From a virus, in the IMG/VR virus record IMGVR_UViG_3300020176_000056, positions 1 through 31,512 of that record: a stretch of 31,512 nucleotides of DNA. The stretch is one strand, 5' to 3'. The position numbers and the translations under genes were made by a program. Below the pieces are notes generated by a model. It did no database searches. It saw nothing but the letters and a program-made list of their open reading frames with translations, and was not told the DNA's origin. Positions within the stretch are counted from its first letter, which is position 1. The number at the start of each line of letters is the position of its first letter. Positions 1 through 17,680 of the stretch are shown piece by piece.

Positions 1-228
1 GAAAAATTAAAAAACGTATTTAAAAAACGAGAATATAATGATGAAAATTGGCGTAGAGTGATGAGAACTATTTATGCTCTTGATGAATTTCATGGAACTA
101 ATATTGAAGAAGCAAATCCAGAACTAGCAAGAATGCTAAGAATGCATAATAAAAAAAGGGTATATAATCATAAATGTAATGGTGATCCGGATTGTTATTA
201 CTGTAACTTATATGAAGAAGCGATATGA
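1..228 (+). CDS. C-terminal fragment of unknown protein with Cys cluster
   Basis: The first reading frame is open from base 1 and stops with TGA at 226-228, giving 75 residues of a protein whose start lies outside the window. The end carries a compact metal-ligand-like cluster, CNGDPDCYYC, preceded by a His two residues before the first Cys. The rest is basic and probably helical. The stop overlaps the ATG of the next gene by four bases (ATGA), so it belongs to the same overlapping operon as the radical SAM genes downstream. I do not recognise the family. The Cys spacing could bind zinc or an Fe-S cluster, but that is inference. Confidence 0.6.
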   Translation, partial: EKLKNVFKKREYNDENWRRVMRTIYALDEFHGTNIEEANPELARMLRMHNKKRVYNHKCNGDPDCYYCNLYEEAI

Positions 229-1406
229 AATGTAAATTGGCATGGTCACATTTAGATTTTAAACCTGGTGGTTATGCACCATGTTATAGATTTAAATTAT
301 ATGACGGACATAAATTTGGTAATGTTCCAGAAATGCCTGATGTCAATTCTCCCGAGTGGGTACGTGTACGGGAGCAATTAAAAAATAATGAATGGCCAAA
401 AGAATGTATAGATTGTAAAATTCAAGAAGAAAGTGGAATCAGATCATATAGGCAAAGATCTGAAGATTTACTTGTATCTGAACCGGATTATAATAAAACT
501 ACAATTCAAGTTAAAGACCTTCAACTTAAACTTAATAGAGCTTGTAATTATTCATGTCGACATTGTACAGTTGCTAGTAATTCTAACTTTATTAAAGTTG
601 GTAAAGAAAATCCAGAAATAGCAAAAAGATTATGGGAAGATCATCATTTTGATCATATCATTGAGCGAAATGAACATAAAATAGATATACCTACGCCTGA
701 AGTTATTGATCATCTTTTTAAAAATATATTACCAACTATTGAACGTATTGAGTTTTCTGGAGGTGAACCATTTTTCCATGTTGAAATGTACAGATTTTTA
801 CAGCGTATGATTGATGATAGTAATATCGATACATCGCAAATTACTCTCATATATAATACAAATATGTCGCTTACACGATTTAAAAATTATGATATATGTG
901 AGTTATGGAAATATTTTAAAAGAGCTGATATTACAGTAAGTATGGATGGAACTACAGACTTGTTTAATTATTTTAGACAAGGTGGAGACTATAATAAAGT
1001 AATTAATAATATTCACGATATGTTATCTAGAACAGATAAAGTTACGAGATTATTATTTGTATGTACTACAACTGCATATCATGCTTTTTATATGAACAAA
1101 ATTGATTATGAATTAGGACTTTTAAAAAAAGAATTAGAACAAAAATATAAGATTGAAGTAAAATACAGACCAACATTTGTTCATTGGCCAGAAGGATTAG
1201 ATGTAGTTAATCTTGCCGAAGATACTAAAAAAGATTTATTAGAAACTACAAATGATACTGAATTTACAAAAGAATTTAAACTAAGATTAAAAGGAAAGCG
1301 TACTATTCCAACTGAAACATTTAAAGATATTGTAATGCTTCAAGACCAACTTTATAATAGAGACGCTAGTAAATTAGCACCGAGGATTTTTGATTATGTC
1401 TATTAA
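225..1406 (+). CDS. Radical SAM protein with N-terminal twitch-like Cys domain
   Basis: This 393-residue protein carries the radical SAM cluster motif CNYSCRHC (C107, C111, C114), which would hold a 4Fe-4S cluster that cleaves S-adenosylmethionine. A GGEP motif follows in FSGGEPFF near residue 180. The N-terminus has CKLAW (C3), a second Cys at C20 and ECIDC (C61, C64) followed by EESGIRSYR. This is the layout of twitch-domain radical SAM proteins in which the auxiliary Cys block precedes the core. Such enzymes oxidise or rearrange sugars, cyclitols or peptides; the substrate here is unknown. Its ATG overlaps the previous stop, and its 3' end overlaps the QueC-like gene by 11 bases. The family call is firm; the function is open. 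Confidence 0.85.
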   Translation: MKCKLAWSHLDFKPGGYAPCYRFKLYDGHKFGNVPEMPDVNSPEWVRVREQLKNNEWPKECIDCKIQEESGIRSYRQRSEDLLVSEPDYNKTTIQVKDLQLKLNRACNYSCRHCTVASNSNFIKVGKENPEIAKRLWEDHHFDHIIERNEHKIDIPTPEVIDHLFKNILPTIERIEFSGGEPFFHVEMYRFLQRMIDDSNIDTSQITLIYNTNMSLTRFKNYDICELWKYFKRADITVSMDGTTDLFNYFRQGGDYNKVINNIHDMLSRTDKVTRLLFVCTTTAYHAFYMNKIDYELGLLKKELEQKYKIEVKYRPTFVHWPEGLDVVNLAEDTKKDLLETTNDTEFTKEFKLRLKGKRTIPTETFKDIVMLQDQLYNRDASKLAPRIFDYVY

Positions 1407-2127
1407 TATTCCAATTATAATGAATAATGTAATTATTCGACTATCTGGTGGAGCTGATAGCGCCATATTACTTTATATGATTTGTGATACATATGAAAAA
1501 GCAGAAACACAATTAAATTTGTGGCCGATTACCGTTATTCATGGAGTAAGAAACTGGCAAAGTTATCATGCCCAACAAGTACTTGATTATATGATGGAAA
1601 AGTTTCCAGATGTAAATTGGAAAACTCATGAGGTGATTAAGTGTATGAATCCCGGTGGAAAACCAAATAATAAAAATGCTAATAATTATGTCGATGATCA
1701 AGAGTCGTTAATTGATAAAGTCGTAGCAGAATATGCCGGATCAGCTGCGGTATTTAATGGTGTAACTGCAAATCCACCAGAAGAAATAGGTGAAAAATAT
1801 TGGGGTTCATCAAAAGTTTTTGGTAAAAAAGTTTGGGATGTGCGAGAAAAACATAGAGACTGGAAATTTATTGCTGATAGAAAACCAATTGAAGATGATA
1901 GTGCACGAAAGCTAGTACATGTCAATCCGTTTATTCAACATCATAAAGGCCATATTGCTGAATTATATAAAAAATATGATTTAATTGATGATTTATTACC
2001 AATAACTCGTTCCTGTGAGGGATGGGACTATATGACAGCAAACTATCAAGAAACTTGTGGAGAATGTTGGTGGTGTATGGAAAGAGATTGGGCCTTTAAT
2101 GTATACAATAAAAAAAGTACATCTTGA
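1396..2127 (+). CDS. QueC-like PP-loop ATPase (7-cyano-7-deazaguanine synthase-like)
   Basis: This 243-residue protein has the PP-loop pyrophosphatase motif SGGADS at residues 17-22, which binds ATP and activates an acid substrate by adenylation. The C-terminus has C207, then C221, C224 and C227 in CGECWWC, followed by ERDWAF. QueC enzymes, which turn 7-carboxy-7-deazaguanine into preQ0, have the same zinc site and a similar Arg-(x)2-Ala/Gly-Phe tail. Length also fits QueC. I chose ATG 1396 over TTG 1390 because GAGG at 1382-1385 is properly spaced for it. No QueD, QueE, FolE or transglycosylase gene is in the window, so a deazapurine role is unproven. QueC-like proteins have also been recruited into other chemistry, for example the Qat and type IV CBASS defence operons. 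A dedicated amide or nitrile-forming step in the local pathway is an alternative. Confidence 0.78.
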   Translation: MSINIPIIMNNVIIRLSGGADSAILLYMICDTYEKAETQLNLWPITVIHGVRNWQSYHAQQVLDYMMEKFPDVNWKTHEVIKCMNPGGKPNNKNANNYVDDQESLIDKVVAEYAGSAAVFNGVTANPPEEIGEKYWGSSKVFGKKVWDVREKHRDWKFIADRKPIEDDSARKLVHVNPFIQHHKGHIAELYKKYDLIDDLLPITRSCEGWDYMTANYQETCGECWWCMERDWAFNVYNKKSTS

Positions 2128-3085
2128 ACCTACACAACTTTGTCAAGCAATGTGTCCTATGTGTGATAGGGTTACATTAGATGGTAAGTTAAATCCAAAA
2201 ATTACGAATGCTAGTCTTTCTCTTGATGATATCAAGGCTATGTTTTCAATAGATTTTATAAAACAACTTAAAGAAATGTATATGTGCGGCAATCTCGGAG
2301 ATCCAATGTTGGCTCCAGAATGTATTGAAATATTTGCATATTTTAGAAAACATAATCCGAAAATATATCTTTCTATGAATACAAATGGGGGAGCTCGTAA
2401 GCCTGATTTTTGGAGGAATCTTGCTAAATTAACAAATCATGTTACATTTTCAATAGACGGTTTAGAAGACACTAATCACATTTATAGAAAGGGTGTTTCT
2501 TGGAAAAATGTAATGAATAATGTAAAGGAATTTATTAATGCTGGTGGAAAAGCAAAATGGGACTACCTGGTATTTGAACACAATGAACATCAAATCGAAC
2601 TTGCAGAGGCAACCAGTACAAGACTTGGATTTGTTGATTTTAGAGTCAAAACGACTAACAGATATGATAAAAAACGCCCTGCATGGCAAACATATCGGAG
2701 AGGAAAAGAAAAAGAAATATTAAGACCTCCTAATAAATCGCAATATCAAAGTGAAGTAGTTAATAATCCTTTGAAAGATAGACATAAATTTGATATAAAT
2801 CCAAAATGCGTTAAAAATAGAGAAATATATATTGCTGCTACTGGTCACGTATTCCCTTGTTGTTGGGCACATACTTCTCTTATAAGTTCTCAAAATGTAT
2901 CCATGGAAGAAAAGTTAGATATGCAGTCTATGATAAGAGAAAATAATGCAAAAGAAGTAGGAATAAATAAAGCTATAGAATGGTTTGATAGTATATTTGA
3001 AAGATGGAATACTAATGATAAGCCATATATATGTTCAGCTAAGTGTAATATAAAACAAGATACAGTGAAATTACAATATGTATAA
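2099..3085 (+). CDS. Radical SAM/SPASM-like protein A (tandem paralogue)
   Basis: This 328-residue protein begins with EPTQLCQAMCPMCDR, which places the radical SAM cysteines at C15, C19 and C22. Internal motifs CGNLGDP, TNGGARKP and SIDGLEDTNHIYRKGV match the next gene almost word for word. The C-terminal part has a Cys next to an IYIAATG strand, then FPCCW and CSAKC near the end, an arrangement typical of SPASM-type auxiliary Fe-S cluster domains. SPASM enzymes act on peptides (RiPP maturases, anSME) or on carbohydrates such as aminoglycoside precursors. ATG 2099 is chosen because it aligns with the start of the paralogue. It overlaps the QueC-like gene by 29 bases, and a longer in-frame ATG at 2057 would overlap it by 71. 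Confidence 0.85.
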   Translation: MYTIKKVHLEPTQLCQAMCPMCDRVTLDGKLNPKITNASLSLDDIKAMFSIDFIKQLKEMYMCGNLGDPMLAPECIEIFAYFRKHNPKIYLSMNTNGGARKPDFWRNLAKLTNHVTFSIDGLEDTNHIYRKGVSWKNVMNNVKEFINAGGKAKWDYLVFEHNEHQIELAEATSTRLGFVDFRVKTTNRYDKKRPAWQTYRRGKEKEILRPPNKSQYQSEVVNNPLKDRHKFDINPKCVKNREIYIAATGHVFPCCWAHTSLISSQNVSMEEKLDMQSMIRENNAKEVGINKAIEWFDSIFERWNTNDKPYICSAKCNIKQDTVKLQYV

Positions 3086-4145
3086 TAACGTGAAAATGGT
3101 TCATTTTGAACCAACTCAAATGTGTCAAGCTTCTTGTCCTATGTGTGATAGAAACAAAAATGGTGGAGAAGTTAATCAATATTTAAAAGATGAATCTATG
3201 ACACTCGAAGGTTTTAAGAAAGCCTTCTCAAAAGAATTTCTTGCAAATCTTAATACTTTCTTTTTCTGCGGAAACCATGGAGATCCTATTTTTGCCCCTG
3301 ATATGTTAGAACACGCAAAATATGTTCGTGAATGTAATCCTGAAATTAATATGTTTGTTACTACTAATGGCGGTGCACGTAAACCTGAATGGTGGGAAAA
3401 ATTAGCAAAAGTAGTTTCATTTGTTAATTTTTCGGTTGATGGTTTACAAGACACTAATCACTTTTATAGACAAGGTGTTAAATGGCAAAATGTTGAAGAC
3501 AATATGGCAGCATTTTGTGATGCCGGTGGTTATGCCAAATGGACATTTCTTGTATTTAATTATAATGAACATCAAGTAGAACAGGCTCGTATGTTTGCCG
3601 AACTAATAGGTGTAAAAGATTTTATTGTGAAAAAATCTGGTAGATATATTAATACTGCAGACCTAAAGAAAAAAGATGATCATCAAGCAGTTTTTAGAGG
3701 GAAAGATGCTATTCGATTATCTCCGCCAAAAGACCCTAAATACCGTAACAAAGCAATTGATAAAGATTATGATAAAATAGTTGAAAAATATGGATCTATG
3801 GATAGTTTTATTGATGTTGCAGAAATTAAACCAAAATGTTTACAAAAACAAGAAATATATGTATCAGCTGAAGGTTTAGTTTTTCCATGTTGTTGGTTAG
3901 CAGGACAAGTATATAAATGGTGGAGACCTATTGAAAGCTCTCAAGAATATAAAGTTATTATGTCAACCGGTGGATTTGAAAAAATAAATGTACATCATAC
4001 GCCGTTGCAAGAAATTATTAATGGAGATTTTTTTGCTACTGTAAAAACTAGTTGGGATATTCATGGAGTAGGACAAGGTAGGATGAAAACTTGTGGAACT
4101 AAATGTAATGTAGGATTTGATCCTTTTGTGGCGCAATGGACATGA
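3078..4145 (+). CDS. Radical SAM/SPASM-like protein B (tandem paralogue)
   Basis: This 355-residue protein starts with EPTQMCQASCPMCDR (C16, C20, C23) and repeats the body motifs of the preceding gene: CGNHGDP, TNGGARKP and SVDGLQDTNHFYRQGV. The C-terminal Cys set is KCLQKQEIYVSAEG, FPCCW and CGTKCN, again SPASM-like. It is clearly the product of a gene duplication with upstream protein A, and is about 27 residues longer, mostly through insertions in the second half. Its start codon overlaps the previous stop by eight bases, so the two are probably translationally coupled and may act as a pair or in successive steps. The radical SAM family assignment is firm; the substrate is unknown. Confidence 0.85.
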   Translation: MYNNVKMVHFEPTQMCQASCPMCDRNKNGGEVNQYLKDESMTLEGFKKAFSKEFLANLNTFFFCGNHGDPIFAPDMLEHAKYVRECNPEINMFVTTNGGARKPEWWEKLAKVVSFVNFSVDGLQDTNHFYRQGVKWQNVEDNMAAFCDAGGYAKWTFLVFNYNEHQVEQARMFAELIGVKDFIVKKSGRYINTADLKKKDDHQAVFRGKDAIRLSPPKDPKYRNKAIDKDYDKIVEKYGSMDSFIDVAEIKPKCLQKQEIYVSAEGLVFPCCWLAGQVYKWWRPIESSQEYKVIMSTGGFEKINVHHTPLQEIINGDFFATVKTSWDIHGVGQGRMKTCGTKCNVGFDPFVAQWT

Positions 4146-4807
4146 ATAAATTATTAATTACTAGTGGCTGTAGTAACACTGATTTTAAATATCACTCTTA
4201 TATAAAACACGGTATTAATGTATGGCCAAATATTGTAGCAGAACATAATGAAAGATCGTTAATAAATGTAGCATCATATGGTGCTAGTAATGATTTAATT
4301 GAAAATACAATATTTGATACAGTAACAAAATATAAAAATCATGATTGTGTTGTTATGGTTCTTTGGACTGATATACGTAGACTTAACATAGCTGACGATT
4401 GGAGTCATAAAACTTTATTACCGAATGATTATGAGGTAGAATATAAAAACTTAGATTTTTATAAAGCAATGTTTAAAAAGTTTTTCCGTAATATGAGAAG
4501 AACTAAATTTATATGCGATTATTATGGATTTCCATGTTATTTTAGACATGGAGGTTGGCAAACTATTAAAGATAGAAATATAGTATCATCGATAAGAGAT
4601 TGGTTAAAAAATCATCCTATCCAAGAAGAAATGAATATGTCGTGGATGGAAATACTTTATGGCTGTATTGCTTTTCCAAATGAATATTTTTTAGAAAATC
4701 ATCCAAATAATATTGGACATCAACGTATAGCTAATATGTTTATAACAGAAATGTGCGATCCGATTATTCATAAACATTGGGTCGAGAAAGATTTTATATA
4801 TGAATAA
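4142..4807 (+). CDS. SGNH-hydrolase-like protein 1
   Basis: This 221-residue protein looks like an SGNH/GDSL-type hydrolase or acyltransferase. A beta strand leads into TSGCSNTD (candidate nucleophile S11, with Cys in place of the usual GDS Asp). ASYGASNDLIEN supplies the Gly and Asn of the oxyanion region, and ENHPNNIGHQRIA near the C-terminus supplies the catalytic-type His. Family members remove or add acyl groups on polysaccharides and lipids. Three further paralogues follow within 4 kb. ATG 4142 gives the four-base ATGA overlap typical of this operon; ATG 4136 is an equally in-frame alternative. The segment FRNMRRTKFICDYY is shared with SGNH-like protein 4, including a long near-identical DNA stretch. 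Confidence 0.72.
   Translation: MNKLLITSGCSNTDFKYHSYIKHGINVWPNIVAEHNERSLINVASYGASNDLIENTIFDTVTKYKNHDCVVMVLWTDIRRLNIADDWSHKTLLPNDYEVEYKNLDFYKAMFKKFFRNMRRTKFICDYYGFPCYFRHGGWQTIKDRNIVSSIRDWLKNHPIQEEMNMSWMEILYGCIAFPNEYFLENHPNNIGHQRIANMFITEMCDPIIHKHWVEKDFIYE
4487..4525 (+). repeat. Near-identical DNA segment shared by two SGNH paralogues
   Basis: Bases 4487-4525 match 8068-8106 at 38 of 39 positions, with 28 uninterrupted identical bases at the end. Both encode RNM(R/K)RTKFICDYY. The rest of the two genes is much more diverged, so this could mark recent duplication, gene conversion or strong constraint. Confidence 0.85.
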
Positions 4808-6125
4808 AATACTTGGAATATCAGAAGGTAGTCATGATGCCGCGTGGTGCCTTATTGAAAATAATAATATTATAGAAGCACATCATGCTGAAAGACATTC
4901 ACGTAAAAAAAATGATAAATGGATTAACAAATACTTATTACCTCAAGGTTGGTTTAATGTTGTAGGACATGAAGACAAAGTAAGAGTCAATGAAAGAAGG
5001 CTTTTTGCCGGACAAAAATATCAAGATGAAAATGTGATAGTTGACCAATTTTATAATCATTATGAAACACATGCTTGGGCTGGATGGGCAACTGCACCTT
5101 TCGACGATTGTGATATCCTTTGTATTGATGCAATTGGTGAATTTGAATCTGCAGCCGCATATAGTGTAAGAAATAAAATATTTACTAAGACTTGGGAAAT
5201 GAAATATCCACAAAGTCTTGGTTTAATATATTCTGCAGTTACTCATGGATTAGGTTATAAACCTATGGAAGAAGAATATATTGTAATGGGACTAGCCGCA
5301 TATGGTGAACCTACAATTGATTTTGAATATCTTATGGATGAAAATTGTCATAAAGGAATTAAATTACCAAATGGGCGGCCAGAAGATATAGCAGCCTCAG
5401 TACAAGCATTATATGAAAAACATTTATTAATCTTAATTGATAAATATTGTAAACACAACAATCTTATATTGATGGGAGGTTGTGCGCTTAATTGTGTAGC
5501 TAATTCAAAAATTCAAAATAAAAATATTTGGATTATGCCAAATCCAGGAGATGCCGGATCTTCATTAGGTGCTGCGGCCCGTCAATTAAATAATAAACTT
5601 AAATGGAGGGATCCTTATCTTGGAACAGATATCCAAAGGCCTATTAATCCTAATGAAGTTGCTAGATATCTTATTGAGCATGGTGTCGCTGGTGTGGCTA
5701 ATGGTCGTGCTGAGTTTGGCCCTCGCGCCCTTGGTAATCGTAGTCTTCTTGCTGATCCCCGTCTTGATATTAGAGACACTATTAATGAAATTAAGAGAAG
5801 ACAAAAATTCAGACCCTTTGCACCGGCAATTTTAGAAGAATATGCTAACAAGTATTTTGAAGGGCCTATGAATGAATATATGCAATTTGTAGCAAAAGCA
5901 AAACATGATTATAAATCCGTTACACATGTTGATGGAACTGCAAGAGTTCAAATAGTAAAACCAAATTGCCAATCCGTTATCCGACCTATTCTTGAAGAAT
6001 GGCATGAGTTAACTGGTTGTCCTATGTTACTTAATACAAGCTTAAATATTAAAGGACAACCAATGGTCGATACTTGGGAAAATGCAGAAGAATTTGAAAA
6101 TAAGTATAAAGTGAAAGTGTTCTAA
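4800..6125 (+). CDS. Carbamoyltransferase, NodU/TobZ family
   Basis: The 441-residue product has the hallmarks of O-carbamoyltransferases, which use carbamoyl phosphate and ATP to carbamoylate a hydroxyl group, usually on a sugar. The N-terminal Kae1/HSP70-like part has GISEGSHDAAW, HYETH (H87, H91) and IDAIGE around D110, which are metal and nucleotide ligands in the family. It also has GLAAYGEP at about 164-171 and MGGCALN. The C-terminal part has NGRAEFGPRALGNRS from about residue 301, KRRQKFRPFAPAIL, DGTARVQ and LLNTSLNIKGQP from about 410. It is shorter than typical NodU or CmcH proteins, which are about 550-600 residues, but both domains look complete in motif content. Start and stop overlap the flanking SGNH genes by eight bases and one base. 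Confidence 0.93.
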   Translation: MNKILGISEGSHDAAWCLIENNNIIEAHHAERHSRKKNDKWINKYLLPQGWFNVVGHEDKVRVNERRLFAGQKYQDENVIVDQFYNHYETHAWAGWATAPFDDCDILCIDAIGEFESAAAYSVRNKIFTKTWEMKYPQSLGLIYSAVTHGLGYKPMEEEYIVMGLAAYGEPTIDFEYLMDENCHKGIKLPNGRPEDIAASVQALYEKHLLILIDKYCKHNNLILMGGCALNCVANSKIQNKNIWIMPNPGDAGSSLGAAARQLNNKLKWRDPYLGTDIQRPINPNEVARYLIEHGVAGVANGRAEFGPRALGNRSLLADPRLDIRDTINEIKRRQKFRPFAPAILEEYANKYFEGPMNEYMQFVAKAKHDYKSVTHVDGTARVQIVKPNCQSVIRPILEEWHELTGCPMLLNTSLNIKGQPMVDTWENAEEFENKYKVKVF

Positions 6126-6970
6126 TGACTAAAAAATTATTAATTGCAGGTGGTGATAGCTGGTCAGATCCAACTGAGCATTATTATCTAGAAGCTGGTA
6201 TGGATAAAATTTGGCCAGATCATGTAGCAGATTTTTTTGAATGGGATATTATTCATACAGGCCGTGGCGGAGCAGGAAATGATTATATACACAATGCGTT
6301 AGTTGACGCTATTGAAGCAAATTCTCATAGAGAAATTATTGTAATGGTTGCGTGGTCTCAAGCTATGCGATGGGTACAATTTGATATGCCGATTGCTCAA
6401 CTTACTTTTAATGTTCATATGCCACAATTAGAAATGCCTTTTGGTCCTGCAAAAGAAAATGTTCAAGATCTAATGCAGCATTTATTAAGATTACATGTTG
6501 ATATGTATGATTCACGAGGTAGTAAAACTGTAGGACTTCAAAAATCTGATTGGTATCGATATATTGCTCGTTGGTCATTAAGAAATATTTACCTTTTAAA
6601 TGAATATTGTAAAAATAAAAATATTAAGATTATTCATCATAGAGCTCTTAATATTTTAAATGGTATAGAATGGATATACAATCGAAAAATAGATCATAAA
6701 GAAAGACAACAGATGAATGAGGCAATAAGAAGTAATAATAAACTTAATTACTACTATTGGAAAATAAAAGAATGGGATAATGTTGTAGGACCGGATTTAT
6801 TTCAAGAAGGAAGTTCTTGTTATGAACTTTATTCAAAATATTTTTTATCACAAAGAGAGCCTCATCCAAATAAAAAAGGAATGGAATTGATTGCACATTC
6901 TTTTGTCAATAAATACATTGAATATTACGAACCGCGAACAACATTAGAACCAGATTACGTATATGACTAA
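6125..6970 (+). CDS. SGNH-hydrolase-like protein 2
   Basis: This 281-residue protein is the member of the local SGNH set with a canonical block I, AGGDSWSD (D11, S12). Block II/III is GRGGAGNDYIHN and the C-terminal His motif is EPHPNKKGMELIA. All recognised catalytic-type residues (Ser, Gly, Asn, His) are present, so an active acyl- or acetyl-ester hydrolase or transferase is plausible. It is the longest paralogue because of an insertion in the middle (around residues 95-140). It starts on the last base of the carbamoyltransferase stop codon and overlaps the next gene by eight bases. The C-terminus is PDYVYD, a tail shared with the neighbouring paralogues. Confidence 0.75.
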   Translation: MTKKLLIAGGDSWSDPTEHYYLEAGMDKIWPDHVADFFEWDIIHTGRGGAGNDYIHNALVDAIEANSHREIIVMVAWSQAMRWVQFDMPIAQLTFNVHMPQLEMPFGPAKENVQDLMQHLLRLHVDMYDSRGSKTVGLQKSDWYRYIARWSLRNIYLLNEYCKNKNIKIIHHRALNILNGIEWIYNRKIDHKERQQMNEAIRSNNKLNYYYWKIKEWDNVVGPDLFQEGSSCYELYSKYFLSQREPHPNKKGMELIAHSFVNKYIEYYEPRTTLEPDYVYD

Positions 6971-7694
6971 ATCTAAAATTTTAATAACTTTTGGATGTAG
7001 TTTTGCAGATATCAATTTATCTCAATATAAAACAAATAATATTAGAGCTTGGCCTATTTTAGTTTCAGATAAACTTAATATGGATCTTCTTAGTTTAGGT
7101 AGAGGTGCTGCAAGTAATTCATATATAGAAAATTGTGTTTTTGACGCAGTTTTAAAATATAAAAATCATGATCCAATAATCATGGTACTTTGGACTAATC
7201 CACGAAGATCAAACATAGGTGACTGCGTGAGTAAGTTTACTAATTTAAAAGATTTAGATTTTCATGAAAATTTTAAGTTTAGTAATGAAAAATGTAATGG
7301 TGGAACTAGCTATGATTTTGATGCAAAAGATGCGTGTTATCGTTATATACGAGCTTCTTTGAGAAATATATGGAGAACTAGATATATAGCTAGAGACCAT
7401 AATTTAGAATATTACGATAATTTAGCAGGATGTTGGACAGCACCATATCCACATTTTTTTAATAAACATAATTCGTCATATTTAGATAATATTAGTAGAA
7501 TACAAGCCAAAATACAAAATGATTGGTATTTTAAAAATCTTAATTTTAAATTAAAAAATATTGAAAGAGGATTCCAAGTTTCCGGTATACCTGGTGATGG
7601 ACATCCAGATCAAAACGGACACGAAGAAATAGCTCAAATGTTTATAAAAAAATATATGAAAAAATTTTACGTTGAGGATTATGTATATGACTAA
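6963..7694 (+). CDS. SGNH-hydrolase-like protein 3
   Basis: This 243-residue paralogue has block I TFGCSFAD (candidate nucleophile S13), GRGAASNSYIEN for the Gly/Asn blocks and GDGHPDQNGHEEIA for the C-terminal His block. The strand MVLWTNPRR matches MVLWTDIRR in SGNH-like protein 1. It belongs to the phage type in which Cys replaces the Asp of GDS. Its start is embedded in the last eight bases of the previous gene, and its own end again encodes EDYVYD while carrying GAGG and the ATG of the next gene. The biochemical role is unassigned; by family it would act on ester or glycan substituents. Confidence 0.72.
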   Translation: MTKSKILITFGCSFADINLSQYKTNNIRAWPILVSDKLNMDLLSLGRGAASNSYIENCVFDAVLKYKNHDPIIMVLWTNPRRSNIGDCVSKFTNLKDLDFHENFKFSNEKCNGGTSYDFDAKDACYRYIRASLRNIWRTRYIARDHNLEYYDNLAGCWTAPYPHFFNKHNSSYLDNISRIQAKIQNDWYFKNLNFKLKNIERGFQVSGIPGDGHPDQNGHEEIAQMFIKKYMKKFYVEDYVYD

Positions 7695-8412
7695 AGAGTC
7701 ATTATTAATAACTGGAGGTTGTAGCAATTCAGCAGATATACAATTTGGAGGAGGTTTTGTTAAAGATTATATTAAAAATAATATATTAATATGGCCAAAA
7801 ATAGTTGCTGAAAAATTAAATATGAAATTGCTTAATGTGGCAATGGGTGCCGCCAGTAATGATTATATTGAAAATGCGATATATGATGCAATAATTGAAA
7901 ACCAAGATAAGTATGATTGTACAATTATGATATTCTGGACTTCTGCACATAGAATAAATTTATTTGATCAAAATACAATATGGGATTATTCAAATCATCT
8001 TTCAGATGATAGTCATAAATTATTTAAAAAACATATTAATGCAAAAAAAGTAATAAATAAATCTTTTCGTAATATGAAAAGAACTAAATTTATATGCGAT
8101 TATTATAAAATACCATTAGTACAAAGAATAAGTCTAGGGCTTTTATTTGAACCACAATGGGATGGTATAAAAAACTGGGTAAAACATCATCCTGATATAA
8201 AAGAATTAAATATGTCTTGGCCAGAAGTATATGCTGGGAGATGGAGTAGTAAATATTATAATAAATCTGATATAGAAACTGAAGGATTACATCCAAACCA
8301 AAATGGACAAAAGTTAATTGCACAAATGTTTATAGATAGCTTGAATGGAAAAGAATTAGAAATTTTATATGATGGCCGAATCCATGATGGCGGAGGATAT
8401 ATCTATGACTGA
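7687..8412 (+). CDS. SGNH-hydrolase-like protein 4
   Basis: This 241-residue paralogue has block I TGGCSNSAD (S13), AMGAASNDYIEN and the C-terminal block GLHPNQNGQKLIA. It is closest to SGNH-like protein 1: the region around FRNMKRTKFICDYY is nearly identical at the DNA level (8068-8106 versus 4487-4525), and NMSWPE matches NMSWME. I chose ATG 7687 over TTG 7672 and ATG 7681 because it gives the eight-base overlap and MTK start seen for its neighbours, with GAGG at 7674-7677 as ribosome site. The end GGYIYD overlaps the next gene start. Function is inferred only from the SGNH-like motif order. Confidence 0.72.
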   Translation: MTKESLLITGGCSNSADIQFGGGFVKDYIKNNILIWPKIVAEKLNMKLLNVAMGAASNDYIENAIYDAIIENQDKYDCTIMIFWTSAHRINLFDQNTIWDYSNHLSDDSHKLFKKHINAKKVINKSFRNMKRTKFICDYYKIPLVQRISLGLLFEPQWDGIKNWVKHHPDIKELNMSWPEVYAGRWSSKYYNKSDIETEGLHPNQNGQKLIAQMFIDSLNGKELEILYDGRIHDGGGYIYD

Positions 8413-9505
8413 TTTAAAATGGAGTCAATACGACTTTACAAAAATACCATTTGATAATATAGTTAAAGTTGGTCAAAGGACTATGCTTCATCGAGACTTA
8501 TTTACGGTGAGTTGGTTACTTGGTAGATTTTGTAATTATTCATGTTCTTATTGTTGGCCTTACGCGTCGAGTCGGATTAAAGATCATAGACCTATCGATT
8601 TAATTTTGATAACAATTGATGAGATTAAACGCCAATCTCGTGATAATGGATATAATTCTTTTCATTTTAGTTTTAGTGGTGGTGAACCTACGTTTCATCC
8701 ACAATATTTAGAAATTATGGAATATCTTGCAGACGATGTTCCTAATACTAATTATCATTCTGTACATATGACTTCAAATATTTCACGTAAAATGAAATGG
8801 TTTGAAGAATATGCTAAAATCTGTGCTAAGTTTAATAGATCAAGCATTACCGCATCATGCCATAGAGAACATGTTGATACTGATGCTAAAGTTGCTGATT
8901 TTGCAGATAAATTAGAATATTGCCAAAGCCAAGATATTCAAGTTACAATTAACCAAGTAATGCTACCTGATAAGTTCGAACAGTGCTGGGATGACGCATT
9001 ATATTTTCATGAAAGGGGTATCAATGTCACTCTTAAGCCTCAGTCTGATCCTACTGCTAGCTTTATTGTTGATGGTTATACTGATGATATGCTTGAACGC
9101 TTACATAACGGAATGCCTCAACGAGGATTTACCGACATCAAAAAGCAAATTGTTCGACCGAAGCCAAAAGTGGAACTTGATCTCCGCTATGAAACGACTG
9201 GTGTTCCGCAACATATGCAAGTAGAGCTTGAAGATGATAAAGGAAACAAATATTACATGGACCAAGCTGAAAGATTCAATGCGTTTAACTTTAATAATTT
9301 TAACGGTTGGAATTGTGAGTCAGGCTATCGTAGTATTATCATTCGTGAACCTGATGGAAATATTAAACGCAGCTATTCATGTGATGACCAACCTTTAGGA
9401 AATATTACTACCGGATTTAAATTATTTGATAAACCAATGCCATGTATCACAAAAAGTTGTGTTTCTTCTGCCGATTCTAAGATCCCAAAAACTAAAATTG
9501 TATAA
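8405..9505 (+). CDS. Radical SAM protein with C-terminal Cys-rich domain
   Basis: This 366-residue protein carries CNYSCSYC (C43, C47, C50) and FSGGEPT, the radical SAM cluster and GGE motifs. The last 65 residues contain NCESGYRSIIIREPDG, YSCDD, PCITKSC and further turns, consistent with a twitch- or SPASM-like auxiliary cluster domain. It is not a close copy of the other three radical SAM proteins in the cluster. ATG 8405 is preferred over the ATGs at 8369 and 8372 because it has GGAGG eight bases upstream and the eight-base overlap seen elsewhere. It is the last gene of the overlapping operon; its stop codon lies inside a late promoter. The substrate is unknown. Confidence 0.85.
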   Translation: MTDLKWSQYDFTKIPFDNIVKVGQRTMLHRDLFTVSWLLGRFCNYSCSYCWPYASSRIKDHRPIDLILITIDEIKRQSRDNGYNSFHFSFSGGEPTFHPQYLEIMEYLADDVPNTNYHSVHMTSNISRKMKWFEEYAKICAKFNRSSITASCHREHVDTDAKVADFADKLEYCQSQDIQVTINQVMLPDKFEQCWDDALYFHERGINVTLKPQSDPTASFIVDGYTDDMLERLHNGMPQRGFTDIKKQIVRPKPKVELDLRYETTGVPQHMQVELEDDKGNKYYMDQAERFNAFNFNNFNGWNCESGYRSIIIREPDGNIKRSYSCDDQPLGNITTGFKLFDKPMPCITKSCVSSADSKIPKTKIV

Positions 9506-9557: not shown

Positions 9558-9914
9558 ATGGCGCAATATGAAGAATTTACTATAGATCAAGGTAGTGATG
9601 TGGCTATTCAATTAGATTTAGTCGATCACACCGGAGCAGCTAAATCTTTGCTAAATCATACAGTAGCAGCAAAGATGAAAAAGAATTATAATTCTACTGA
9701 CTCGGCCGATGTACAGACATTCTCAACCATAGTTGCGACGCCATCAACTGCGGGTATTTGTACCTTGTCATTAACTAATTCTCAAACAGATGCGCTAAAG
9801 CCTGGGAAGTATGTATATGATGTAGAAATTTCTTTTGTAGATAGTGATAATCAAACTATTGTAGAAAGAATCCTTGAAGGCCGGATACAGGTTACGCCAT
9901 CAGTTACTAAATAA
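9558..9914 (+). CDS. Small predicted beta-sandwich virion protein (BppU N-domain-like)
   Basis: This 118-residue protein reads as a single beta-sandwich: FTIDQGSDVAIQLDLVDHTG, then VAAKMKKNY, TLSLTNSQTDALKPGKYVYDVEI and ILEGRIQVTP. The pattern of a short N-terminal strand, an alanine-lysine strand and a KPGKYVYDVE turn is that of small Ig-like modules at the N-terminus of baseplate upper proteins (BppU-like) and of small structural proteins in marine T4-like phages. It has a good ribosome site (GGAG, eight bases before ATG) and its own late promoter. It precedes two fibre genes, so an adaptor or attachment role in the tail is likely but inferred. Confidence 0.6.
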   Translation: MAQYEEFTIDQGSDVAIQLDLVDHTGAAKSLLNHTVAAKMKKNYNSTDSADVQTFSTIVATPSTAGICTLSLTNSQTDALKPGKYVYDVEISFVDSDNQTIVERILEGRIQVTPSVTK

Positions 9915-9923
9915 GGGACTGAC

Positions 9924-12900
9924 ATGGCAGAAAAAAGGACTTACGTCAAACGTATAATCGTTGGTCGCCCCGTTAGAAGTATTAACGAAGCGGCCTCTGG
10001 TGTTGTTGTCGGTACCGGACGACAGTTTGGTAGTATACTTGTTAATAAAACTTCCACAAATTTATATGAACCCGGCGAACTTGTAGCAGGACACGGTTTA
10101 GACAAATCTTACGGTGATAGTTCTTCAAATAATATTGTACTATCGCTCGATTCTTCTGAATTAAAAGCTATTATCGATTCAGATTATGTTAAATTTATAA
10201 CAGGTCAAAGTCTTACACGTAATTTTGTTGATTCAGCATATGTTGAAGCCAATTCGCTTGACTCTGAAAGAGGTTTAAATTTATTCCGATCAGATTTAAG
10301 TAATCTGACAACTTCTATTGTTCCAAATGTAGATAGTTCAATAGATCTTGGTTCTCCAACTAAAAAATTCCGTAGATTATATCTTTCAGGTGATACTATT
10401 GTCCTTGGTAATTTAACACTTAGTGATGAGACTGGTACATTTGTTATTAGAGATTCATCTGGTGGGATATCATCCGTTAATTTAGATGCTAATACTACAT
10501 CAGATCTTGCAGAAGGTACAAGCCTTTATTATACAAGAAGTAGATTTGATTCTGCTCTTGGTGATGCAACTTCAACTCAAACTATTAGAAATTATTTCTC
10601 ATTTTCAGATCAAGGTGGAGATGGAAGTTTCTCATATGATTCTTCGACTGGCGCATTTACATATATAGGTCCTAGTGCAGCGGAAGTTAGAGCACATATT
10701 AATGTAATTGATGCTGGTGGCGATGGATCGTTTACTTATGATTCCTCTTTAGGTAAATTAACATATACTGGTCCAAGTGCATCAGAAGTAAGAGCACATT
10801 TTCAAGCTATCGATGCTGGTGGAGATGGTTCATTTACATATGATTCAGCCACTGGAAACTTTACCTATACTGGTCCATCTGCTAGTGAAGTCAGAGCTCA
10901 TATTAATGTAGTCGATGCTGGCGGTGATGGATCATTTACGTATGACTCTGCACTTGGAAAATTAACTTATACTGGACCTAGCGCATCTGAAGTACGATCG
11001 CATTTTTCGGCTGCAGGTGATTTAACATATGATTCCGCAACTGGTCAATTTAGTTTTGATGTTGAAAATGTATACACATCTGCTAATTTTGATTCTGATT
11101 TAAGTGCAACAATAAGTGCATCTGGCGGTCTTACATATGATTCGGCTACTCATCAATTAACTATTACAGATACTGGTGTTACTGCCGCAACATATGGTAG
11201 TACGACACAAATTCCAGTACTCACAATTAATGCAAAAGGTCAGATAGATTCTGCCGGAACAGTTACAGTTGCTGGTGTTACAGGAACAACGTTTGATTCT
11301 GCGACCGGTAAAATAACTATCAATACTGCCGATGGTTCTTCATTTACAGCAACAGTTGGTGGATTCCAAAGATTACACATTGATTCAGCAAGTGCTACTA
11401 ATATATCTGGTACTTCACTTAACTATGGTACTATAAATGCTACAACAGGTACAATAAGTCAACTTTCTACTGATTCTGCTCATATTGATGTTATTGATAA
11501 TAATACTCTAAGAACAAATTCTTTTGATGCGGATTCTGGTGTTATTGATAATATTTCTGGCACAAATATTAATTATGGCGCAGGCCATATTGGTCAATTT
11601 ACATCTGACTCAGCAGAAATTGGCGAACTAAGAGTTTCTGGTAACTTAACAGTTGCGGGTGATACTGTGACTGTCGGCGCCTCAACATTGGTTGTTGACG
11701 ATCCACTTATTCATCTTGCCAATAATAACGAAGCGACAGATTTACTTGATATTGGTATTATAGGTCACTATTATCGTGACGCTCAAAGAAGACATACTGG
11801 TCTTTTTAGAGATGCTACAAACCAGCAATATTATCTCTTCCATGAGATGGTTGATTCTGCATTTGATTCGACTCAACCTCCTTCAGTTATTGATAGAACA
11901 GCTACTGGTTTTGCAAAAGCTGATCTTAATGTCGCAAATCTACTTGCGGATTCGGCTACATTAACTAATTTAACCGTTAGTGGTGTTAGTAATATATCAA
12001 GAACAGCAACTGTTGATTCTGGTACTTACGGATCTGCAACATTAATTCCACAAATTACAGTCAATACTTCTGGATTTATTGATAGTATTGGAACCGTTGC
12101 GGTTGCTAGCATATCATCTACTACATGGGATTCTTCAACTGGTGAATATACCATTAGTACTGCTGATGGTGGATCATTTAAAACTGCAATTCGCGGTTTT
12201 GGTGATAATGTATCATTAGCATTTGGTAATGAAAACGATGCAATTATTAATCGTAATCCTACTAATCTCGTAATCAAAGACTCAAATGGTGGAATTTATC
12301 TTGAAGCAGAAGACATTTATCTGGCGTCAAAGAATAACGGTAATCCAATTTGGTTACAAGTTGGAGCAGATGACGGTGTAAAACTAAACGACTCTACTGG
12401 TAATTTAATTCTAAAAACTAGAAAATATGGTGTAGAATTAAATGGTAGTATTACTGGTGATTCAGCCGATTTTGATATAATTCGAATTGGTGGTAAAGTT
12501 ATTCAATCGCATATAGATTCTGCATATATCGAGCTAAACTCGCTTGATTCTGAAAGAACAATAGCGCTTATAGATTCATCATATGTTAATGCCCGAGTCC
12601 AAGATCTTACTGGTGATGAATTTACATTTACTTTAGTTGATAGTGGCGCAATTGCAGGACCAAGAATAGTACTTGATAGAAATAGTTCATCTCCTGCAGA
12701 TTCAGATGCATTAGCAAATATCGAGTTTAGAGGTAGAAATAGTGCAGATTCTAGTATCCAATATGGTAAAATAGCAACATTTATTAATAACGCGACTGCA
12801 AATGCTGAAGTTGGTGAAATGCAATTCATCATTAAGCAATCTGGATTCGAACGCGTTAAAATGAAATTAAATTCTCAAGGTATAGTCCTTGATAATAATG

Positions 12901-13223
12901 AGTCAATAGTATTTTCTGATGATTCAAATAGTCAACTATTATCACCAGGAAATTATACTGCTGATCACACTTTAACATTACCAGATTCAAGTGGTATAAT
13001 TTTAACACGCAGCTTTGTAACTACAATTATTGATTCATCTTATGTTGGAGCAAGAACATCAGCAACTGGATTTAATCTTGACTTCGACGATAGTGCTGGA
13101 GTGACACAAGTGTCGTTAGCGATTACACAAGCACCAACTATTGCAACTGGCGCGCCAATTGGATTTGGTAATACAGTAACATTATTAGATAAAGATAGCG
13201 CAGAAGTGGTTATCTCTCTATAA
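9924..13223 (+). CDS. Large tail-fibre-like protein with tandem repeats
   Basis: This 1099-residue protein is built of repetitive beta-rich segments with about forty Asp-Ser dipeptides. Early on it has [18 protein letters not shown], a motif of phage tail fibres repeated in the next gene, then [20 protein letters not shown], a fibre-type connector. Four tandem 34-residue repeats ([10 protein letters not shown]...[10 protein letters not shown]) follow at about residues 231-366, with two degenerate copies after them. Further on [23 protein letters not shown] resembles the fibre segment NLTVNGTTTTVNSTNSLVADPLI of the 13263 gene. No coiled coil, signal peptide or enzymatic motif is visible. It is probably a long fibre or fibre-shaft protein, but which T4 fibre it replaces cannot be told. 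Confidence 0.8.
10614..11021 (+). repeat. Four 102-bp in-frame tandem repeats in the large fibre gene
   Basis: The codon for the first Gly of GGDGSF recurs at 10614, 10716, 10818 and 10920, exactly 102 bases apart. Each unit encodes [22 protein letters not shown] plus a linker alternating between INVxDA and FQAIDA types. Two weaker copies ([20 protein letters not shown]) follow. The protein repeat is far better conserved than the DNA. Confidence 0.95.
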
Positions 13224-13262: not shown

Positions 13263-14600
13263 ATGGCAGATAGAATTCCACTAGTCATATCGGGATCATC
13301 GATTCGAGAGATCCCGTCAGCTGACAGGCTTGACGTCCAAGGGGCGTTAGAAGTTAATGGACACATTACACCCGGAACTGATTCGGCATACGATATTGGT
13401 ACATCGTCTCTAAAATTTAGAGATATTTACTTATCATCGGGTACCGTACATTTGGGTGGTGTAAAACTTAGAGCCGATGGTAATAAATTATCAATTCAAG
13501 ATAGTACTGGAGCCGATGCGGGTATTACAGCCGGCACTCTAGGAGAATTAAGTTCAGATGATTTAACCGAAGGTGCAACGAATCTTTTCACTACCGCAGC
13601 AAGAACGCGAAGCCATATTAATGTGGTTGATGCTGGTGGTGATGGTTCATTTGCCTACGATTCTGCCCTTGGTAAATTAACTTATACTGGTCCTTCAGCT
13701 TCTGAAGTAAGAGCTCACATTAACGTAGTTGATGCTGGAGGAGACGGCTCTTTTGCATACGATTCAGCACTAGGAAAACTTACGTATACCGGACCTTCTG
13801 CCTCCGAAGTACGTGCACATTTTAGTGGTTCTAGTGGTGTATCATACAATAGTGGAACTGGAGCAATAACAATTGGTCAGGCTGTTGGAACAACAGACTC
13901 AGTAACATTTGGTGGATTATACGCTTCAGGTAACGCAATAATTGGTGGTAACCTCACAGTTAATGGAACTACTACAACTGTTAATTCAACAAATAGTTTA
14001 GTTGCTGATCCTTTAATAGAATTAAATACTGGTGCAACTTCAAATGCTAACGACCTAGGTTTCATTATGGAGCGTGGTTCAACTGGTAACAATGCTGCAA
14101 TTATATGGGACGAGTCAGAAGATAAATTTAAAGTTGGTACAACTACGAATACTGGTGCAGATACTGGAAATCTTACAGTTACAACTGGTACGCTAATTGC
14201 AAATATCGAAGGTAATGTGACTGGTAACGTAACAGGTTCATCAGGATCAACAACTGGTAATGCGGCAACTGCTACCGCCTTAGAAACTGCAAGAAATATT
14301 GGTGGCGTATCATTTAATGGTACTGGAGATATTAACCTTCCAGGCGTTAATACAGCTGGTAATCAAAATACTTCTGGTAATGCTGCGACTGCAACTGCAT
14401 TAGCGACAGCCCGGGCTTTCTCACTTACTGGTGATGTTACTGCATCTGGTGTTAACTTTGATGGTACAGGCGCAGTAGCTCTCAGTACGACAATTGCTGC
14501 GGGTGCCGTTTCGAGTAATGAATTAGCTTCTGCATCAACTTTGTTACTTAAAAATACAGCTGGATCAACACTAAAAACTATTATTGGAGCAGGTAGCTAA
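13263..14600 (+). CDS. Second tail-fibre-like protein, sharing repeats with upstream gene
   Basis: This 445-residue protein has the fibre motif AYDIGTSSLKFRDIYLSSG near residues 41-60, DDLTEGATNLFTTAARTRSHI, and two adjacent copies of the [19 protein letters not shown] repeat found in the larger fibre gene. The second half has LTVNGTTTTVNSTNSLVADPLIELNTG and two copies of TGNAATATAL-TAR followed by GGVSFNGTGDINLPG, the tail-fibre repeat of many phages. It ends abruptly in LKTIIGAGS with no receptor-tip-like domain. It could therefore be a shaft or half-fibre whose tip is encoded elsewhere. Its stop TAA shares a base with the gp13 start. Confidence 0.8.
   Translation: MADRIPLVISGSSIREIPSADRLDVQGALEVNGHITPGTDSAYDIGTSSLKFRDIYLSSGTVHLGGVKLRADGNKLSIQDSTGADAGITAGTLGELSSDDLTEGATNLFTTAARTRSHINVVDAGGDGSFAYDSALGKLTYTGPSASEVRAHINVVDAGGDGSFAYDSALGKLTYTGPSASEVRAHFSGSSGVSYNSGTGAITIGQAVGTTDSVTFGGLYASGNAIIGGNLTVNGTTTTVNSTNSLVADPLIELNTGATSNANDLGFIMERGSTGNNAAIIWDESEDKFKVGTTTNTGADTGNLTVTTGTLIANIEGNVTGNVTGSSGSTTGNAATATALETARNIGGVSFNGTGDINLPGVNTAGNQNTSGNAATATALATARAFSLTGDVTASGVNFDGTGAVALSTTIAAGAVSSNELASASTLLLKNTAGSTLKTIIGAGS
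13611..13823 (+). repeat. Two tandem 102-bp repeats with scrambled synonymous codons
   Basis: Repeat units start at 13635 and 13737, each preceded by HINVVDA. Over the 28 residues from GGDGSF to RAH the two copies encode the same protein, but 20 of 28 codons differ synonymously (22 base differences in 84). The same unit occurs four times in the gene upstream with Thr in place of the first Ala. Confidence 0.95.
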
Positions 14601-16516: not shown

Positions 16517-17310
16517 TGTTTGGAACACATTTTTATCACGAAAAAACAAGACGAGCAGTTGCTATCTTTGGTAAACTGTTTAATAACTTGTACGTTATTC
16601 ATAAAAATAGAACTAGTGGTGCATCTGTTTCTCAGGTAAAAGTTCCATTGGCATACGCACCAAAAGCAAAATATTTAGATCGTATACGTGAAAATCCAAA
16701 TTTACAAGAGAATACAAAGGTAGCAATTAAACTTCCACGTATGTCATTTGAAATTACCGGATTGACATACGATAATACTAGACAAGTATCGAAAGTAAAT
16801 AATTTTACACGTTATGGTACAACAGCGAATAATAGAAATAAATTTTTTACGGCTGTTCCATATATTATTTCTTTTCAATTAAATATTTACACAAAGACTC
16901 AAGACGATGCTTTACAGATTGTTGAGCAAATTTTACCAACCTTTAATCCACAATACTCTGTAACTCTTAAACCATTTTCAGATTATCCAGATATTTTAGA
17001 AGATATACCAATTGCTTTAAATGGCCTGTCTTTTCAAGATGATTTTGAAGGAGAGCTTGGAGCTCGTAGAACAATAATCTATACTATGGATTTTGATATG
17101 AGAATTAGATATTATGGCGCAGTTAATGCTGGTGAAATTGTACGTGATGTTAGAGCTAAAGTTTTTGATATAGGCGCCGGCCTTAGTGATTCAGATTTAA
17201 GGCTACAGACTATACAAATTCTACCGAATCCAATATCATTAAATATATTGGGCGACTCCGATTTTGGATTTACAAGGACAGATTATGGACCAGACTCCGA
17301 CGCTTCGTGA
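16516..17310 (+). CDS. 15: Tail sheath stabilizer / tail completion protein gp15
   Basis: This 264-residue protein begins FGTHFYHEKTRRAVAIFGKLFNN, the hallmark start of T4-like gp15. It contains KVPLAYAPKAKYLDRIRENP and LPRMSFEITGLTYDNTRQ, conserved through the family. gp15 caps the finished tail, stabilises the last sheath and tube rings and presents the surface that binds the neck. Length matches T4 (272 residues). It overlaps gp16 by 26 bases. Confidence 0.93.
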   Translation: MFGTHFYHEKTRRAVAIFGKLFNNLYVIHKNRTSGASVSQVKVPLAYAPKAKYLDRIRENPNLQENTKVAIKLPRMSFEITGLTYDNTRQVSKVNNFTRYGTTANNRNKFFTAVPYIISFQLNIYTKTQDDALQIVEQILPTFNPQYSVTLKPFSDYPDILEDIPIALNGLSFQDDFEGELGARRTIIYTMDFDMRIRYYGAVNAGEIVRDVRAKVFDIGAGLSDSDLRLQTIQILPNPISLNILGDSDFGFTRTDYGPDSDAS

Positions 17311-17680
17311 TAGCGATAAAGCCGCAAATGATTATAATTATTCGCGCGAAACATATTATGAGCTAATTGAAAAAGGCAAAAATGCTTTAGAAAATATGAT
17401 TGAAGTTGCTAGAGAATCTGAGCATCCTCGAGCATATGAAGTTTTATCTGGTATGATAAAAAATATATCCGATGTAAACGACCGCTTAATGATATTAAAT
17501 AAAGGTAAAAAAGAACTTGAGAAAAAGAATGAAACAACCGAAGTAAATAATACACAAAATAATTTCTACTTAGGTTCAACTGCAGACGTACAACGTTTGC
17601 TAAAAGGCGATTTAATAGATGTCACACGAACAGGCGGTGAAAGCAAGAGCGACTCGGGAGACGTATCTAGGGAATCCTAA
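17285..17680 (+). CDS. 16: Small terminase subunit gp16
   Basis: This 131-residue protein lies between gp15 and gp17, as in all T4-like phages. Its core YYELIEKGKNALENMIEVARESEHPRAYEVLSGMIKNISDVNDRLM is the long-helix oligomerisation region of gp16, which rings DNA and regulates the motor. The C-terminus is polar. ATG 17285 is chosen because AGGA at 17275-17278 precedes it; an upstream TTG at 17264 would only lengthen the overlap with gp15. The gene overlaps gp17 by 62 bases, a tight arrangement that probably couples their translation. Confidence 0.88.
   Translation: MDQTPTLRDSDKAANDYNYSRETYYELIEKGKNALENMIEVARESEHPRAYEVLSGMIKNISDVNDRLMILNKGKKELEKKNETTEVNNTQNNFYLGSTADVQRLLKGDLIDVTRTGGESKSDSGDVSRES

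Follow-up and report, generated by a model that had tools for sequence, protein, structure and literature searches.

The host recognition cluster (HRC) of marine T4-like phages is a hypervariable region, and in pelagimyophages its glycosyltransferases, rich in glycosyltransferase family 8 (GT8), have been read as a means of modifying the host surface (PMC7029224). Radical S-adenosylmethionine (SAM) enzymes are also known from such phages: 12 of their genes were recorded in the T4-like environmental genome TARA_ERS488813_N000010 in 2017 (PMC5332604), and radical SAM cassettes within the HRC were reported in 2020 (PMC7029224). Here we describe an enzyme island in the IMG/VR virus record IMGVR_UViG_3300020176_000056, analysed as one strand of 31,512 nt (the window), which encodes four radical SAM enzymes (rS1 to rS4), a QueC-like ATPase, an O-carbamoyltransferase and four SGNH-fold proteins (SG1 to SG4). 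It belongs to a conserved gene set that occupies the HRC place in uncultured phages and whose core is also present on Bdellovibrionota contigs, and we tentatively propose that it makes a modified sugar for the virion.

The ten overlapping genes at positions 225-9505 lie on the + strand in the order rS1, QueC-like, rS2, rS3, SG1, carbamoyltransferase, SG2, SG3, SG4, rS4. According to the listing of open reading frames (ORFs) the overlaps measure 1-29 nt, and ORFs occupy 99.9% of positions 1-9505, in agreement with the tight packing of ten complete genes and one fragment claimed in a preliminary description of this DNA. Correction of the gene calls gave preferred starts at 1396 (QueC-like), 2099 (rS2), 7687 (SG4) and 8405 (rS4). 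The QueC-like gene is encoded in 10 IMG/VR contigs, all of which share, as far as each locus reaches, the order rS1, QueC-like, rS2, (extra radical SAM), rS3, (SG), carbamoyltransferase, SG proteins, rS4 and tail-fibre genes, with one to six SG proteins per island. The ratio of non-synonymous to synonymous substitution rates (dN/dS), obtained for seven genes against up to three relatives in which dS was unsaturated, is 0.03-0.27. Because this order is kept in ten independent contigs and the genes are under purifying selection, assembly of the set by chance is excluded. The genes had been proposed to form one co-conserved set beside the tail fibres of a T4-like phage, and the shared order supports this. 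Neither of the findings named in advance as refuting it was made: in the relatives examined the genes stay together, and their catalytic motifs have not decayed.

The preliminary description, however, took a unit of ten genes, which proved too small. In relatives, the region 5' of rS1 contains several more radical SAM genes, a pyridoxal phosphate (PLP) enzyme termed H300, and a small protein that, on inspection of its sequence, resembles 2-oxoglutarate oxygenases by an HxD motif. Further left lies a divergent block with two glycosyltransferase-like proteins and a methyltransferase-like gene (some contigs adding a sulfotransferase or a further pair of radical SAM genes), followed by baseplate genes. 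The complete island therefore spans ~20-27 kb and encodes about 9-12 radical SAM enzymes, the window holding its right (3') half. H300 has invariant Asp159, Lys187 and Arg195 and a HisC-like aminotransferase fold, that of a fold-type I PLP enzyme; a profile search of the PDB gave no useful match for it. The variable slots of close relatives hold glycosyltransferase-like proteins (PHROG 1962), a sulfotransferase, an FkbM-type methyltransferase, an amidinotransferase and a fusion of a HAD sugar-phosphatase with an NDP-sugar pyrophosphorylase (sugar-nucleotidyltransferase), while wider islands encode a StrB-like inosamine-phosphate amidinotransferase (1bwd, 2e-25) and a UDP-glucose dehydrogenase. 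In these comparisons the relatives' genes are mechanical ORFs, families were clustered at 30% identity and 60% length, paralogue counts are approximate, and some close loci or contigs overlap or are near-copies.

Baseplate-type genes, recognized by sequence inspection, lie to the left of the island in three loci (L098, L102 and L104), and tail-fibre and neck genes lie to the right; in the close clade rS4 is always followed by g118 and tail-fibre genes. The island thus occupies the HRC place of marine T4-like phages.

The distribution of rS4 extends well beyond this clade. At least 347 IMG/VR contigs encode this enzyme; its identity beyond the close clade is about 70%, and the mean column identity in an alignment of 38 sequences is 74%. 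None of the 50,697 INPHARED phage records gave a match to rS4, rS1 or the QueC-like protein. Among 43 non-redundant rS4 loci, each longer than 15 kb, N-twitch radical SAM genes are present near rS4 in 39, an rS2/3-type enzyme in 24, a QueC-like gene in 23 and H300 in 22, and all but one (42/43) contain three or more radical SAM genes. Several rS4 contigs represent jumbo T4-like phages, as judged from portal and terminase matches. Whole rS4 contigs have up to 22 Pfam radical SAM matches, whereas the isolates Mosig, C48C1 and HTVC008M have one or two each. The rS4 tree places the window beside two close viral contigs and, with support 96/92, in a group with L070 and L081.

It had been suggested that the set be sought outside T4-like phages, and its core was indeed found on contigs of Bdellovibrionota, here uncultured bacteria related to predatory ones; it is therefore not confined to phages. 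A GTDB scan with a narrow rS4 alignment was empty and had made rS4 look phage-only, which was wrong: a deeper alignment recovered 24 loci, most of them in Bdellovibrionota metagenome-assembled genomes (MAGs) at 55-63% identity. Several of these contigs are 300-900 kb long and have housekeeping genes around rS4. The combination of rS4, an rS2/3-type enzyme and one N-twitch subfamily occurs in 15/18 Bdellovibrionota-type loci, the three exceptions being contigs of 4-10 kb, and this N-twitch subfamily also stands first among the + strand genes of the phage islands. Compared with the window, rS4 of such loci (L111, L112, L115, L117, L127 and others) is 59% identical and the rS2/3-type enzyme 38%; the N-twitch enzyme is 50-62% identical to those of phage islands. 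Some core loci also contain a PLP enzyme, a PP-loop protein, a methyltransferase-like gene or a family-2 glycosyltransferase (GT2), the last of these being no further than about 9 kb from rS4 in seven loci. Unlike the phage islands, these loci are chromosomal and often near GT2 genes, and no carbamoyltransferase or SGNH array was seen in them. Two large GT2 proteins near rS4 (L127:14195-15700 and L112:11064-12635) have N-terminal extensions of about 220 aa without a family match.

In the rS4 tree the Bdellovibrionota sequences stand apart from the viral ones. Since the loci come from metagenome assemblies, no single contig can be assigned to a host more than provisionally. Outside Bdellovibrionota, a few of the GTDB hits resemble virus contigs that were binned with bacteria: L106 matches the viral contig L029 gene by gene at 100%, and L125 resembles viral islands. 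The rS4 islands rich in N-twitch enzymes in a Chloroflexi MAG (L116) and an Acidimicrobiaceae MAG (L123) are possibly of the same nature.

The assignment of rS1 to rS4 as four radical SAM enzymes is well founded, as each contains one CxxxCxxC motif and passes the Pfam Radical_SAM cut-off. rS1 is an N-twitch member (NCBIfam NF033640, 209.4 bits versus a cut-off of 170), in which C3, C61, C64 and C107/C111/C114 are invariant and C20 nearly invariant among 16 paralogues. rS2, rS3 and rS4 fall below this cut-off (53, 44 and 51 bits), the radical SAM core alone being matched. The SPASM domain (PF13186) is weakly matched by rS2 (14.3 bits) and rS3 (18.0 bits), against a cut-off of 21.5. The proposed link to BtrN and aminoglycoside precursors found no sequence support for the window's own enzymes: neither NCBIfam nor Pfam gave a match of BtrN type, and a PDB profile search with rS4 returned neither BtrN nor any other useful match.

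The QueC-like protein exceeds the Pfam QueC cut-off (30.1 versus 22 bits). Its SGGADS loop, of the SGGxDS type, is invariant in seven close homologues, and four cysteines are conserved as C-x13-CGECWWC, i.e. C(x)13CxxCxxC, whereas the zinc motif of canonical QueC is C(x)8CxxCxxC (PMC13329287). The loop and the four-Cys site are common to the QueC/QatC/Cap9 family (PF06508; PMC13329287), from which the window protein differs in its longer Cys spacing, in the absence of the YxQxHxxE and YPDC motifs from its alignment, and in having no QueD, QueE or FolE gene nearby; QueD and QueE were not seen in any of the examined island loci. The protein may thus be called QueC-like for its PP-loop, four-Cys site and Pfam match, but it is not a QueC in the preQ0 sense, and a role in preQ0/queuosine synthesis was rejected on the grounds of these missing motifs and partners. 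A PDB profile search gave no useful match.

The carbamoyltransferase had been described as complete, and both of its Pfam domains were recovered (Carbam_trans_N, 122.7 versus 24 bits; Carbam_trans_C, 164.1 versus 27 bits), together with matches to GdmN (7e-43), novobiocin carbamoyltransferase and TobZ structures. With the NodU/TobZ/GdmN O-carbamoyltransferases it shares both domains and the core motifs; it is, however, shorter (441 aa versus about 576-702) and of low identity to them. Carbamoyltransferases of known chemistry (TobZ, GdmN, NodU) form O-carbamates on small molecules and sugars.

SG1 to SG4 have no significant sequence match in Pfam, PHROGs or PDB, nor did a PDB profile search with the SGNH proteins give a useful one. 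Their fold was revealed by an AlphaFold model of SG4 (predicted local distance difference test, pLDDT, 82.4), for which nearly all of the 43 Foldseek PDB hits with E <= 0.001 are of SGNH/GDSL type; the claim of four SGNH-like proteins is thereby upheld for SG4 and, by family likeness, for SG1 to SG3. Of the catalytic set expected of SGNH hydrolases (Ser of block I, Gly/Asn of blocks II-III, Asp-x-x-His of block V), the alignment shows Ser13 and a His-Pro pair as invariant and an Asn as nearly so, while the acidic residue, at -2 or -3, varies. The model also matched a 602-aa viral protein annotated as radical SAM (BFVD A0A6J5LTW5), hinting at a possible radical SAM-SGNH fusion.

The 3' junctions of the SGNH genes (4799-4807, 6962-6970, 7686-7694 and 8404-8412 in the window, and similarly in relatives) consist of an 8-nt stop-start overlap, TATGAnTAA or TATGACTGA, which encodes the C-termini (F/Y)(V/I)Y(D/E). 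The C-terminal (F/Y)(V/I)YD of several SGNH proteins was considered as a docking or maturation tag and rejected; because it coincides with the 8-nt overlap TATGACTAA, it is given no meaning at the protein level. The overlap may aid translational coupling and ease the shuffling of SGNH cassettes.

The features of the window are collected in the table. To the 3' side of the island lie genes of T4 type for tail fibre, neck, terminase, sheath, tube and portal; phage C48C1 has the nearest portal in phage records (63.5%). Scans of the window for RNA families and tRNAs found none.

Features of the window and the evidence for each
Feature	Position	Strand	Evidence and relatives
N-twitch radical SAM C-terminus, 75 aa, cut at contig end; fifth radical SAM gene	1..228	+	76-77% identity to C-termini of L007:6388-7623 and L009:7047-8276, both of which have CxxxCxxC
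rS1, N-terminal-twitch radical SAM enzyme, 393 aa	225..1406	+	NF033640 209 bits; Pfam Radical_SAM
QueC-like PP-loop ATPase with four-Cys site, 243 aa from ATG 1396	1396..2127	+	Pfam QueC; SGGADS; C-x13-CGECWWC
rS2, radical SAM enzyme, SPASM-like C-terminus	2099..3085	+	Pfam Radical_SAM 50.4 bits, weak SPASM; 61-80% identity in relatives
rS3, radical SAM enzyme, SPASM-like C-terminus, rS2 paralogue	3078..4145	+	Pfam; 38% identity to Bdellovibrionota counterpart
SG1, SGNH-fold protein	4136..4807	+	GCS and HPN motifs; family fold via SG4 model
NodU/TobZ/GdmN-type O-carbamoyltransferase, 441 aa	4800..6125	+	Pfam Carbam_trans_C 164 bits, Carbam_trans_N 123 bits; GdmN 7e-43
SG2, SGNH-fold protein, clear orthologues in most close relatives	6125..6970	+	50-73% identity in L006, L007, L009-L013
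SG3, SGNH-fold protein	6963..7694	+	96-97% identity in L006/L007; conserved columns
SG4, SGNH-fold protein	7687..8412	+	AlphaFold pLDDT 82.4; Foldseek GDSL/SGNH hydrolases, e.g. TesA, E 7e-6 to 1e-3
rS4, signature radical SAM enzyme of the island, 366 aa	8405..9505	+	at least 347 IMG/VR contigs; Bdellovibrionota contigs 55-63% identity; dN/dS 0.04-0.06
Small tail-fibre-associated protein, always 3' of rS4 in close relatives	9558..9914	+	PHROGs 1084, 3304 (L-shaped tail fibre assembly); synteny
fib1, long Ser/Thr/Asp-rich repetitive fibre-like protein	9924..13223	+	composition, position, synteny; without informative family match
fib2, tail fibre protein	13263..14600	+	PHROGs tail fibre matches

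We favour, tentatively and at somewhat less than even chances, the view that the apparently soluble enzymes of the island build a sugar or glycan with many modifications that is placed on the virion, the neighbouring tail fibres being the preferred target. According to this scheme, the radical SAM enzymes would rearrange, dehydrogenate or epimerise a sugar or amino-sugar scaffold, while the PLP and PP-loop enzymes would install nitrogen, by transamination and by ATP-activated amide or amidine formation, respectively. Glycosyltransferases would assemble the modified sugar product, the carbamoyltransferase and the enzymes of the variable slots would cap it, and the SGNH proteins would add, remove or transfer acyl groups. 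The product would be made in the cytoplasm and most likely put on the virion, with fib1 as a candidate target. A carbohydrate-like product, as originally envisaged, is supported indirectly by the glycosyltransferases, sulfotransferase, sugar-phosphatase/nucleotidyltransferase fusion and amidinotransferases of relatives and by the bacterial GT2 genes near rS4.

Several observations weigh against this scheme. No island enzyme has a characterised close relative, and none of the radical SAM enzymes belongs to a known sugar-acting family; the window itself is without a glycosyltransferase. The tail-fibre neighbourhood is restricted to the close clade of the window, rS4 having other neighbours in jumbo-phage islands, and because the Bdellovibrionota counterparts have no virion, placement on virions cannot be the ancestral role.

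Moreover, among the N-twitch and SPASM radical SAM enzymes whose function is known, most modify peptides, so that a protein substrate has to be reckoned with. The main rival explanation, which we consider rather unlikely, is accordingly that the N-twitch/SPASM-like enzymes crosslink, epimerise or C-methylate tail-fibre or other phage proteins, with the other enzymes acting on the same protein. The island adjoins fib1 and fib2, and enzymes resembling QueC are able to attach bases to proteins (PMC11996544, PMC13279940). Peptide maturases are among the best weak NCBIfam matches of rS1 to rS4, but their scores are far under the cut-offs, and genes for sugar-nucleotide metabolism and glycosyltransferases are part of the island. 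Positions 1-9505 contain no small precursor-like gene, the genes overlapping throughout; a precursor of a ribosomally synthesised and post-translationally modified peptide (RiPP) within the window was rejected for this lack of spare intergenic space, a test that applies to 1-9505 and not to a distant precursor.

The preliminary description had left open a virion or a host-surface glycan, and the second of these options is the less likely. We regard it as improbable that the island alters the lipopolysaccharide O-chain or capsule and thereby blocks superinfection, even though it lies in the same genomic place as the GT8-rich clusters that have been so interpreted (PMC7029224). No membrane-spanning segment was detected by a hydropathy threshold, which is not a trained predictor, in the 183 ORFs of ten close island loci, and these ORFs include no membrane protein, flippase, polymerase or lipid-carrier transferase. 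The absence of membrane-spanning segments argues against lipid-linked export of a surface polymer, although host machinery could supply these functions.

The chances are slightly poorer still for a diffusible natural product, aminoglycoside- or amino-acid-like, acting on the host or on competitors. The content of radical SAM, PLP, amidino-, carbamoyl- and methyltransferase enzymes is like that of an antibiotic cluster, and the core is also found in Bdellovibrionota; however, no exporter or resistance-type gene was seen in the loci, and the glycosyltransferases and the linkage to tail fibres fit such a product less well.

Hypermodification of DNA, in which the carbamoyltransferase would act on 5-hydroxymethylcytosine (5hmC) and the other enzymes would extend the product, is very unlikely. 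Phage carbamoyltransferases acting on 5hmC are known (PMC8670742), and there the hydroxymethylase gene is adjacent to the carbamoyltransferase gene, whereas no hydroxymethylase of the thymidylate-synthase type lies near the carbamoyltransferase here. The relative G001 has a thymidylate-synthase homologue with Asp at the position of E. coli 177 and Thr at 147, adjoining a dCMP deaminase (L100:16661-17341 and 17307-17768); apparent in-frame stops in its portal and thymidylate-synthase matches seem to fall at the ends of otherwise open frames. This synthase is a possible dCMP hydroxymethylase, so that the phage may carry 5hmC, and its signature lends the DNA reading some support, though it leaves the radical SAM enzymes unexplained. 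It lies, however, about 40 kb away, in the replication region, and four rS4-bearing contigs of over 160 kb have no thymidylate-synthase match. No known modification of DNA calls for some ten radical SAM enzymes or for SGNH proteins, and Bdellovibrionota carry the core chromosomally. For 5hmC carbamoyltransferases the residues W408/G421/R423 have been proposed (PMC8670742).

Least credible of all is a gathering of unrelated auxiliary genes, for despite the hypervariability of the region (PMC7029224) and the differences between relatives in several slots, the core has a fixed order in ten contigs, dN/dS values indicating selection, and counterparts on bacterial chromosomes.

A wider form of the virion-glycan proposal, possible but doubtful, starts from Bdellovibrionota: there the pathway of rS4, rS2/3-type and N-twitch enzymes would yield modified sugars or glycans of a new class, and T4-like and jumbo marine phages would have acquired and enlarged it, to as many as about 20 radical SAM enzymes per genome, as a means of coating their virions or tail fibres. 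Radical SAM enzymes perform some of the hardest chemistry in biology, and the viruses considered here carry ten to twenty of them, conserved and under selection; such islands are widespread at sea and have been missed by culture collections. Categorically new chemistry is possible. Should the product be a virion glycan, phages would have a new means of dressing their tails, and the large host-recognition islands kept by marine T4-like phages would become easier to explain. The core in Bdellovibrionota provides a second system in which to find the product.

The preliminary description knew of no phage system with this gene set. This holds for the exact pathway, but radical-SAM-rich T4-like phages had been noted earlier (PMC5332604, PMC7029224). 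The literature searched, which left most subscription journals and bioRxiv outside, contained no description of the conserved pathway, rS4 or the Bdellovibrionota counterpart; the pathway and its bacterial counterpart thus appear to be undescribed. The genome TARA_ERS488813_N000010 is of the same T4-like kind and has a similarly unusual number of radical SAM genes, but was treated within iron-sulfur cluster metabolism, without a pathway, partner genes or a bacterial counterpart (PMC5332604).

Among isolates, Pelagibacter phage Mosig EXVC030M has a partly matching cluster at 54-73 kb. Its H300 (55%), desaturase-like protein (75%), Asp/Asn hydroxylase (72%) and TauD (74%) are identical to this extent to those of rS4 islands, and it also encodes a carbamoyltransferase, an SGNH-like protein and MoaA-like enzymes; it differs in having no match to rS4, rS1 or the QueC-like protein and in its number of Pfam radical SAM matches, which is two, with one of the scores under the cut-off. 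A ten-gene block of Mosig (L002 314-6567), encoding Asp/Asn hydroxylases, GNAT, TauD, redoxin, FMN reductase, PLP enzyme and desaturase-like proteins, is common to the rS4 islands of uncultured phages at up to 75% identity.

The closest described system is the HRC of pelagimyophages and cyanomyophages (PMC7029224). Like the present island, it is a variable region between baseplate/tail and neck genes that contains tail fibres and glycosyltransferases, and in one compared genome pair it includes radical SAM cassettes. These cassettes receive a single sentence there, with no gene set, core or function; in contrast, the island described here possesses a fixed multi-enzyme core that can be traced to bacteria.

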